Shown piece by piece: positions 28,599 to 30,885 of a stretch of DNA of 64,000 nt; position 1 is the stretch's first letter; each line of letters opens with the position of its first letter. The translations under genes were made by a program, and so were the position numbers. This stretch comes from Pyrinomonadaceae bacterium. GTDB taxonomy: Bacteria > Acidobacteriota > Blastocatellia > Pyrinomonadales > Pyrinomonadaceae. The stretch is taken from the NCBI GenBank assembly GCA_014380365.1, contig JACMJZ010000034.1:62001-126000 (forward strand), written 5' to 3'. Below the pieces are notes generated by a model. That model saw only the letters and a program-made list of their open reading frames with translations. It had not been told where the DNA came from and did not search any database.

Positions 28599-29081
28599 AT
28601 GAACGGAAGTTTTATTGAGACAGAAATGCCCTTGCTACACTCATTGTTAAGTAAGCTCGGACTCAGCCAGGTCAAAGCGGAGCGTCACCCGATTCGTGTT
28701 TTTCTTTTGGACGACGACCGACGAAGGCATCGGTGGTTTAACGCGCGTTTCAAAGGCGATTTCGTGGATGTCGCCGATAATGTCGCGCAGGCGCAGAAGT
28801 TGTTAAGCGCGAATTCCTACGACGCCATCTTTCTGGATCACGATCTGCACCCGGAGCACTACAACAACCTGAGCCGTGATGATGCACGGACTGGCTACGC
28901 TATCGCTTCATGGCTGGCCGCAAATCCCGAACTTCAGCGTGCCTCGACGATCATGGTGCACACGAGAAATGCCGACGGTGCAATGCGCATGGTCGAAGAA
29001 CTTCGCCGCGCCGGGCGAAACGCGGACTACGTGCCATTCCCCATGCTTGAGGAAAGAATCAAGCGCTACTGGAAAGGATAG
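28599..29081 (+). CDS. Receiver-like protein (cyclic-phosphate processing receiver type)
   Basis: A 160-residue single-domain protein with a CheY-like core: 'RVFLLDDDRRRHRWF' near residues 31-45 (acidic cluster) and 'YDAIFLDHDLHPEHY' near 75-89 with the phospho-acceptor-like Asp. The His residues after that Asp (DHDLHPEHY) are characteristic of the receiver subfamily described as cyclic-phosphate processing, rather than ordinary response regulators. There is no output domain and no kinase nearby. An alternative start is ATG 28626. Confidence 0.8.
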   Translation: MNGSFIETEMPLLHSLLSKLGLSQVKAERHPIRVFLLDDDRRRHRWFNARFKGDFVDVADNVAQAQKLLSANSYDAIFLDHDLHPEHYNNLSRDDARTGYAIASWLAANPELQRASTIMVHTRNADGAMRMVEELRRAGRNADYVPFPMLEERIKRYWKG

Positions 29082-29153: not shown

Positions 29154-29229
29154 TGGTGGCCAGGGACGGATTCGAACCGCCGACGCCGGCCTTTTCAGGG
29201 CCGCGCTCTACCAACTGAGCTACCTGGCC
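29154..29229 (-). tRNA. tRNA-Phe (GAA)
   Basis: A complete 76-base cloverleaf on the minus strand. The acceptor stem is GGCCAGG/CCTGGCC, the D arm GCTC-AGTTGGTA-GAGC, the anticodon stem CGGCC/GGCCG with loop CTGAAAA (anticodon GAA), and the T arm GGCGG-TTCGAAT-CCGTC. The 3' CCA is encoded. It has its own promoter at 29251-29279. Confidence 0.97.
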
Positions 29230-29325: not shown

Positions 29326-29353
29326 TTGACGGATTTCTTGTAAGGTGTATAAT
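29326..29353 (+). promoter_or_regulatory. Strong plus-strand promoter with no downstream plus-strand CDS
   Basis: TTGACG (29326-29331), a 16-base spacer and a consensus TATAAT (29348-29353). It points into 29360-29547, which has no plus-strand gene but contains an intrinsic terminator. Confidence 0.65.
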
Positions 29354-29359
29354 CCCGGT

Positions 29360-29513
29360 CGTTGAGGATGGGGTTGGCGCCCAAACGTCAGTCCGGTTGA
29401 AAGACGACATCCGATTCAAAATCGATGCCCGCCAGTGCCAGCTCGGCCGCCGATCGCGCCCCCCGCAGTCGCTACCTCCGAGTTGGCACAGCTATTTCCA
29501 GCCAACTCTTTTT
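29360..29513 (+). ncRNA. Candidate orphan small RNA, about 154 nt
   Basis: Bounded by a near-consensus promoter and a textbook terminator, in a 318-base gap where no protein gene fits. Local structure is visible: TTGG-CGC-CCAA (29374-29384), CATC(C)GAT pairing with ATCGATG (29408-29427), and GGATG (29366-29370) complementary to CATCC (29408-29412), which competes with that hairpin. It does not look like tmRNA, SRP RNA, RNase P RNA or a riboswitch of a class I can recognise, and the next gene downstream is on the opposite strand. Confidence 0.5.
29480..29513 (+). terminator. Intrinsic terminator of the candidate small RNA
   Basis: GAGTTGGC (29480-29487) pairs perfectly with GCCAACTC (29501-29508), with a 13-base loop, followed by TTTTT (29509-29513). 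The T-run is on the plus-strand side, so it does not serve the minus-strand gene ending at 29548. Confidence 0.75.
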
Positions 29514-29547: not shown

Positions 29548-30885
29548 TCAGGTCTTAAGCCCCGCGCGTTTGAGTAGTTCTGAACTCTCTCGGTCTGCGT
29601 CTCGCCTGACTGATTCCTCATCGAGAGTCAGCAAATGACCATCCCTCATGACAAGCTGTCCGTCAATCACGACGCTTTGAACGTCACTGGTCTGGGCGGA
29701 GTAAACCAGGGCTGAGACTACATCCTGCTGTTGCGGTGCTGAGTGCAGAGCATCCAGATTTACGACAATTACATCGGCCCGCTTACCGGTTTCCAAACTC
29801 CCAATCTGTCTTTCCAGCCCCATAGCTGTAGCGCCCCCCATTGTGGCGACGCGCAAAGCTTGTTTCGAGGGAATCACTTCGGGACCGTGGAGGGCCTTTT
29901 GCAGTAACGCCATCGTGCGCATCTCCGTGAACATGTCGAGACGGTTGTTGCAGGCGGCACCATCGGCGCCGAGCGAAACTGAGATTCCGCGTTCCAGCAT
30001 GTTCGTGATTTCAGCGATTCCTGAACCAAGTTTCAAATTGGAGGACGGGCAATGCGCGACGTTCGTCTGCGTCTCAGCCAAAGTAACAAACTCGGATGCA
30101 TCCAAATGAACGCAGTGCGCCAGGACTGTGTGCCGGCCGCTGATCCCAAGCGAATCGAGATAGGAAACGTTGCGAAGACCGGTGTCCTTTTCGACCTCCG
30201 CACACTCATTCCTGTTCTCGGACGCGTGCGTATGAACCATGACGCCGCGCTCTTTCGCTAACTTTGCAACTTCATTAAGGAGTTCGCGCGTGCAACTGAG
30301 CGCGAAGCGTGGAGCGAAGCAATAACGTATTCGCCCATTCGCTTTCCCATCCCACTTTTCCAGCAAGCGAAGTGATTCTTTGATGGAAGCGCCGGTATCT
30401 TCGCAAAGGCCGGCCGGAACCTCGTCACCTTTGTCCATCATGCACTTGCCCACCGTGGCGCGGAAGCCGGACTCTTCAACCACCTTGAAGACTTCTTCGG
30501 TGTGGTTCACAGTCTCCATCGTCAAAGCGCAGGTCGTTCCACCTTTAATGAGTTCGGCGACACCCAGTCGCGCGGACGCCCTGATTGACTCGCGGCTATG
30601 AGCAGCTTCCATCGGCCAAACCCGCTTCTTGAGCCAATCAAGGAGTGACAAGTCGTCAGCGGAGCCACGAAAGATGGTCTGACAAAGATGAATGTGGGTC
30701 TGAACGAAGCCCGGCAGCACAGCGCACCCAGCCGCATCAATAACGACGTCCGCCTCAGCACCGACGCCACCCACCTCACCCCTTGCGGCTATGCGACCAT
30801 GGCGGATCAGCAGGTCGCCACGCAGGATGGAGTCGTCGCCATCCATCGTGACCAGCGTTCCATGCTTGATAAGAATAGATTTCAT
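29548..30885 (-). CDS. Amidohydrolase, 5'-deoxyadenosine / S-adenosylhomocysteine deaminase type
   Basis: A 445-residue enzyme of the MtaD/TrzN branch of amidohydrolases. Metal ligands are in '[16 protein letters not shown]' (about 59-74), '[14 protein letters not shown]' (about 212), '[10 protein letters not shown]' (about 247) and '[12 protein letters not shown]' (about 301). These deaminases act on adenosyl or methylthioadenosyl compounds in the salvage of SAM by-products; the exact substrate cannot be read here. It lies downstream of recA, behind the recA terminator. Confidence 0.85.

Follow-up and report, generated by a model that had tools for sequence, protein, structure and literature searches.

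A conserved small RNA of one Acidobacteria family whose C-rich hairpin probably pairs with ribosome-binding sites

Introduction

In the mycobacterial 6C/B11 small RNA, C strings in the hairpin loops are described as pairing in some cases with ribosome-binding sites (PMC10470900). The PmaR RNA of Agrobacterium has a long stem bearing a C-rich loop, and it is reported to activate the majority of its targets, chiefly at positions other than the ribosome-binding site (PMC6234868). Among the Acidobacteria, the motifs Acido-1 (RF01686) and Acido-Lenti-1 (RF01687) came from comparative genomics and were judged not to be cis-regulatory (PMC2864571).

The locus analyzed in this study lies in a 64,000-nucleotide stretch of DNA (the window) from a bacterium of the family Pyrinomonadaceae. 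A sequence-only reading had proposed an orphan small RNA gene there, between a tRNA-Phe and an amidohydrolase gene. Among the titles and abstract beginnings of the open-licence PMC literature, no published report of this RNA was found.

Results

Locus, features, and existing annotation

Both proposed flanks, the tRNA-Phe and the minus-strand amidohydrolase, were confirmed (Table 1). The amidohydrolase is followed by recA, while the tRNA-Phe was found upstream of the RNA in 35 of the 45 loci scanned. Between positions 29354 and 29513 the open reading frames are short frames only, in agreement with the earlier view that no plus-strand gene is apparent there. The ends given for the small RNA are approximate, as the start (~29360) was placed from the promoter and the end (~29499 or 29513) from the T-runs. 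The product of the gene upstream of the tRNA-Phe, at 28599-29081, has a cREC_REC domain (PF20274, a cyclic-phosphate processing receiver domain), and 10 of the 73 loci have a homologue of this gene upstream of the RNA.

Table 1. Positions of the small RNA, its parts, and the neighboring genes in the window
Feature	Position	Strand	Remarks
tRNA-Phe	29154-29229	minus	divergent neighbor, upstream of the small RNA gene
TTTGT-N10-ACAAA	29301-29320	plus	palindrome-like motif, just 5' of the -35 box
Promoter TTGACG - 16 - TATAAT	29326-29353	plus	-35 box 29326-29331; -10 box 29348-29353
Small RNA	29360-29503	plus	about 140-155 nt; model R1 matches in genomes of the family
5' domain, window's clade	29366-29412	plus	helix GGATG(G)/(C)CATCC enclosing two hairpins
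5' domain, inner hairpins	29372-29393; 29396-29405		the second small, with a GNRA-type loop
Pyrimidine-rich linker	29413-29434	plus	ends TGCCCGCC; anti-Shine-Dalgarno-like
P1, 5' strand, GTGCCAGCTCGG	29435-29446	plus	12 pairs; 99.3% of cells paired; nine pairs change on both sides
P2 and apical loop	29451-29471	plus	loop CCCCC 29459-29463
P1, 3' strand, CCGAGTTGGCAC	29478-29489	plus	followed by a conserved AGCTATTT tract, 29490-29497
8-bp stem, GAGTTGGC / GCCAACTC	29480-29487 / 29501-29508	plus	followed by TTTTT 29509-29513
Amidohydrolase gene	29548-30885	minus	Amidohydro_1, E 2.1e-74

The statement that the RNA matches no recognised class was borne out, as no Rfam family reached its threshold in the window, in 16 relatives, or in one divergent copy. 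Specifically, the search of the window with Rfam 15 returned no family at or above its gathering score at the locus, and the only hits in the window were to tRNA and, far off, to an Acido-Lenti-1 RNA (RF01687; 41085-41129, plus strand, 39.5 bits against a gathering score of 37). A permissive search of the spacer gave two sub-threshold matches, neither of them on the small RNA, and at E values up to 1 no match overlapped the RNA in the loci of the 16 relatives. The divergent copy (L148) had only a sub-threshold miRNA match (MIR5038, 23.8 bits against a threshold of 70). The 6C model, searched at E values up to 10, did not hit the locus. Its two matches in the same genome (E 4.38, with 21 bits against a cut-off of 47, and E 4.7) were both elsewhere, and none of 14 control genomes passed the cut-off either.

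Promoter and upstream motif

The near-consensus promoter is present where the sequence-only reading had placed it. Eleven of its 12 positions agree with the consensus, and it was the best of three sites found between 27 and 32 kb, where 2.4 are expected by chance. A promoter with 11-12 of the 12 positions was observed in 66 of 69 loci (the remaining four of the 73 had too little upstream sequence), and in 65 of these 66 the spacer was 16 bases long. As a control, 2 of 2,070 shuffled stretches reached 11 positions.

The exact TTTGT-N10-ACAAA motif occurred in 24 of the 46 loci without a downstream lipoprotein gene and in none of the 27 loci with one. Its half-site spacing is that of the CRP/FNR type. 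Conserved in the window's clade between the divergent promoters of the tRNA-Phe and the small RNA, the motif could be the site of a CRP/FNR-type regulator for either of them, but its center near -50 is an unusual position for activation.

Distribution among bacterial genomes

When 59 genomes were searched at the DNA level, 20 of them, including the window's own, contained the stretch. The aligned relatives retained the promoter together with a core that stops short of the right arm of the 8-bp stem, with the exception of L019. In this locus (genome G002, of the same genus), the small-RNA promoter was kept and the RNA was absent, which is either a true deletion or a fault in the MAG assembly. 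A covariance model built from 20 sequences (R1) was then applied to 119 genomes of the window's family and matched 72 of them, at 73 places, with 22 of the family's 29 genera represented. When 162 genomes of the class were searched, all 72 matching genomes belonged to this family. Similarly, a core-only model applied to 396 genomes of the phylum gave 16 strong matches inside the family, while outside it only four genomes matched, with 22-25 bits, and these were taken as chance matches.

Three genomes that were first scored as lacking the RNA (G031, G062, and G063) were found to carry it when filters were turned off, at 52-68 bits and with none of the three copies used in the core model. Hence, the count of 72 of 119 genomes is a lower bound, because search filters can lose weak copies such as these. 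An exact-pattern scan of contigs, which was too strict, returned three records, all from Acidobacteria MAGs and two of them labelled gp4. Genome G028 contained two different copies of the RNA (L109 and L096), one beside the tRNA-Phe and one elsewhere; the assembly is fragmented, and contamination is a possible explanation. The promoter and stems that relatives were expected to conserve are indeed kept, with compensatory changes, and as judged from the comparison of genomes it is near certain that the locus encodes an RNA gene.

The conserved core hairpin

The conserved core (29435-29489) is composed of the 12-bp helix P1, an asymmetric internal loop, the 7-bp helix P2, and a five-base pyrimidine-rich loop. 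This structure was returned by an unconstrained RNAalifold prediction from 59 of the 73 members, the core alignment (A2) leaving out 14 that were mostly near copies. Across the 59 rows, 97.5% of the cells were paired, and 14 of the 19 pairs changed on both sides with pairing kept. For P2, 94.4% of the cells were paired, and five of the seven counted pairs had both-side changes. The core contained 151 double-change cells compared to 47.7 in shuffles, with 0 of 500 shuffles as high, and the count fell to 10-29 in controls with slid partners. The G-U states observed at several core pairs (17 U-G at 20-63, 14 G-U at 24-59, and 14 U-G at 37-45) show that the RNA is on the plus strand.

The apical loop is closed by a G-C pair that was invariant. 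The loop itself was C5 in 28 of the 59 rows and belonged to one of eight other types in the other 31. All nine types (CCCCC, UCCCC, CCCUC, ACCCC, UCCUC, ACCUC, CCAUC, UCCAC, and UCUUC) contain at least four pyrimidines among their five bases. The left side of the internal loop was ACGC or CCGC in 39 of 59 rows, and its right side was CTACCT, CAACCT, or CAACAT in 38 of 59.

Compared to shuffles, the core of the window folded with a z-score of -4.06 and the whole RNA with -2.75, with 1 of 200 shuffles as good as the latter. Among 11 genomes of the window's genus, mean identity was 98.9% in the hairpin, 76.8% in the 5' domain, and 72.2% in the tail; it was 60.6% in the promoter spacer, over nine of those 11 genomes. 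The hairpin is under strong selection in this genus. A small peptide was rejected as the product of the core, since the core length varied between 52 and 57 and each frame contained a stop in 9 to 29 of the 59 rows.

The 5' domain and the linker

The 5' domain of the window's clade can be read as a three-way junction. Its three helices were 92, 80, and 85% paired in 20 sequences, with 11 of 17 pairs changing on both sides, in a structure drawn by eye from the same alignment and differing from the free RNAalifold prediction for the 5' part. Folded alone, the 5' part of the window was no more stable than shuffles (z -0.19), and in other genera it looks by eye like a different, single hairpin.

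Two alternative folds had been suggested from the window's sequence, with GGATG and a hairpin at 29408-29427 competing for CATCC. The GGATG:CATCC helix shows compensatory change, but the competing hairpin shows none and was rejected, as 0 of its 3 inner pairs changed on both sides. The outer CAT/ATG arm of this hairpin was seen, by eye among the aligned relatives, only in the window. A pseudoknot between the C loop and a GGGG of the 5' domain was also rejected because, by eye, neither L014 nor the second-clade rows viewed contain this GGGG.

The linker between the 5' domain and the core is conserved. Its members contain either ACCUUCC and ACCUGCCC or GUGCCCGCC, and ACCUUCC...ACCUGCCC is the form of many other genera.

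The 3' end

The perfect 8-bp stem followed by five T, regarded as a terminator in the sequence-only reading, exists in the window and is stable (-12.5 kcal/mol; 0 of 200 shuffles as good), but the hairpin that is conserved is the 12-bp one instead. The left arm of the 8-bp stem is the right arm (P1 3' strand) of the larger hairpin, and the best fold of the whole RNA contains the larger hairpin without the 8-bp stem. By eye, the 8-bp terminator was absent from the aligned relatives and seen only in the window's species. A terminator scan reported none at the locus because its loop limit was 8 and the loop here is 13.

A T-run of at least four within 10 columns 3' of P1 was counted in 46 of the 59 alignment rows. 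With a looser span, such a run was found in 60 of 73 loci. In that count the helix finder was off by 1-2 bases for most rows, and for L058 and L092 it set the helix in the wrong place. The terminator appears weak because the T-run begins a few nucleotides after P1. The window has only three T at this position, and its 8-bp hairpin with five T may compensate for the short run.

Association with a lipoprotein gene

The description of the RNA as an independent orphan holds in the window, but in 27 of the 73 loci it is the leader of a small lipoprotein gene (124-152 amino acids) whose start lies no more than about 30 nt from the modelled RNA end, a distance that leaves little room for a separate lipoprotein promoter. 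This number derives from an ORF rule that identified 29 downstream ORFs, two of which (L059 and L088) did not look like lipoproteins by eye and were removed. In the other 46 loci, including the window, the RNA was followed by a minus-strand amidohydrolase (23 loci), directly by recA on the minus strand (nine loci), or by another gene or the contig end (14 loci). In the window's genus, the amidohydrolase and not the lipoprotein gene was downstream in 10 of 11 loci, and the eleventh (L007) ends there. A fixed link to one downstream gene class, by which a leader or riboswitch would be recognized, was not found, with the lipoprotein gene following in only 27 of 73 loci. An RNA acting as a cis-antisense to the amidohydrolase was rejected, as the convergent neighbor differs among relatives.

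No lipoprotein homologue was found by a search of eight RNA-bearing genomes that lack the downstream gene. Eight genomes carry the lipoprotein gene beside recA without the RNA, as read by eye and confirmed by search for G101 and G112, and in these the RNA is dispensable. The lipoprotein at L061 (2333-2791) contains repeated GATPTPGIPD motifs and, as the one protein tested, had no Pfam match. In several genera, its relatives have the RNA on one side and recA on the other.

In a RecA tree of 60 rows, the joint state of RNA and lipoprotein gene was spread across the family, and on well-supported branches the state of RNA without the gene needs at least four changes. This tree has a midpoint root only, 20 of its 57 inner branches are unresolved, and six loci were dropped from it (five without a recA found and one too short), while the label rp was assigned by default to L140, L142, L149, and L150. 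The simplest reading would be an ancestor with both the RNA and the lipoprotein gene, followed by separate losses.

The 5' part of the RNA paired with the Shine-Dalgarno (SD) site of the lipoprotein gene with a mean probability of 0.56, compared to 0.30 when the 5' part was shuffled. The test covered 24 of the 27 leaders, with the SD site chosen by a rough rule, and its Wilcoxon p of 9e-5 is too optimistic because the 24 leaders are related. For 12 of the 24, at least 8 of 40 shuffles paired as well, and L076, L084, and L086 fell below the shuffled mean. The stretch of the RNA that pairs with the SD site differed between loci.

Discussion

The locus has its own promoter, no ORF, a conserved fold, and an unpaired seed, as expected of a trans-acting base-pairing small RNA. 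The comparison of genomes supports the promoter, the strand, the fold, the conservation, and the persistence of the RNA with or without the downstream gene, and a regulatory role is plausible. The reading favored here, with a probability of roughly 0.55, is that of a small RNA specific to the family, with unpaired C/U-rich stretches that pair with SD sites. This pairing would be in cis where the lipoprotein gene follows and in trans at all other loci. The strong promoter would give rise to a structured small RNA of about 140 nt, whose pyrimidine-rich loop (CCCCC in the window) and ACCU/CCC linker resemble the anti-Shine-Dalgarno end of 16S RNA. The loop and linker would then cover purine-rich ribosome-binding sites, and translation would be lowered. 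With the lipoprotein gene no more than about 30 nt downstream, the linker can pair with the SD site of that gene, and the RNA would be a cis-acting leader. At loci without the gene, such as the window's, the RNA would regulate other mRNAs in trans. Hfq, which is encoded in the window's genome (94.6 bits), may take part in this. The C-rich hairpin probably pairs with the ribosome-binding sites of mRNAs, base pairing being a working mode that we infer and that goes beyond what the comparison itself shows.

A base-pairing regulator is favored on account of the C/U-rich stretches, the pairing with SD sites, and the presence of Hfq, and its main rival is a protein-binding or sponge RNA. Known RNAs work in this manner, as 6S RNA binds polymerase and CsrB binds CsrA. 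Here, the internal loop and the C-rich loop would bind a protein, and complementarity to mRNAs would be irrelevant. The conserved internal-loop bases and the unvarying G-C pair that closes the apical loop are consistent with such a role. However, the 6S RNA of this genome is a different locus, and the 5' domain differs between clades while the C/U-rich stretches persist, which fits pairing better. A protein-binding RNA is considered rather unlikely. An improbable explanation is that the RNA is solely a cis leader of the lipoprotein gene, acting by attenuation or SD masking, and a relic at loci that have lost the gene, the window's among them. The position of the gene in 27 of 73 loci, the excess of SD pairing by the 5' part over shuffles, and the spread of the joint state over the RecA tree all agree with it. 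Nevertheless, the RNA shows no decay without the gene, with 98.9% identity in the hairpin, consensus promoters, and compensatory pairs, and 46 of the 73 loci have no such gene downstream.

A DNA element, either a cruciform or a protein-binding palindrome between the tRNA-Phe and recA, appears very improbable. The 12-bp inverted repeat is a palindrome in DNA as well, and it lies near recA in many genomes. Yet DNA would have no reason to keep the plus-strand G-U pairs seen at several positions, and the promoter points into the repeat in 66 of 69 loci. The remaining alternative of a promoter and terminator that came together by chance in a spacer, with no gene, can draw on the roughly 2.4 promoter-like sites expected in these 5 kb. 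It was ruled out by the conservation and covariation of the RNA and the retention of its promoter, and its probability is negligible.

To our knowledge, few small RNAs have been described from the Acidobacteria, a common soil phylum. The RNA described here is a clear new family in this phylum: its promoter is a consensus one, its fold is supported by compensatory changes, and its range is defined. Its occurrence with and without the lipoprotein gene in close relatives provides a natural series for the interconversion of leaders and stand-alone small RNAs. A more speculative reading, which is possible but doubtful, regards the RNA as a mimic of the 16S anti-Shine-Dalgarno tail that began, or doubles, as an SD-masking leader of the lipoprotein gene. 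Repeated losses of that gene would have freed the RNA to regulate translation in trans, while in other species the gene shed the RNA. If this double life were true, the birth of a trans-acting small RNA from a cis leader could be traced inside one bacterial family.

Among known systems, 6S RNA (RF00013) is similar in length and stand-alone state, but identity with it was rejected, as its model did not match at the locus and the 6S RNA of this genome is located on another contig (G000:C9:207797-207981, 53.4 bits). Of the two Acidobacteria motifs, neither model was found at the small RNA locus, and Acido-Lenti-1 occurs elsewhere in the window. The likeness to PmaR is one of description, and PmaR differs in activating most of its targets. 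Another likeness is to the actinobacterial 6C/B11 RNA (RF01066), also a small RNA with a C-run in a hairpin loop (CCCCC in 28 of 59 rows here). Where 6C/B11 has two C loops, the RNA described here has one apical loop on a hairpin of 12 and 7 bp, together with a linker. With the covariance model below its cut-off, membership in 6C was rejected, and the likeness is one of working mode. The small RNA is best described as a new family within a kind already known.
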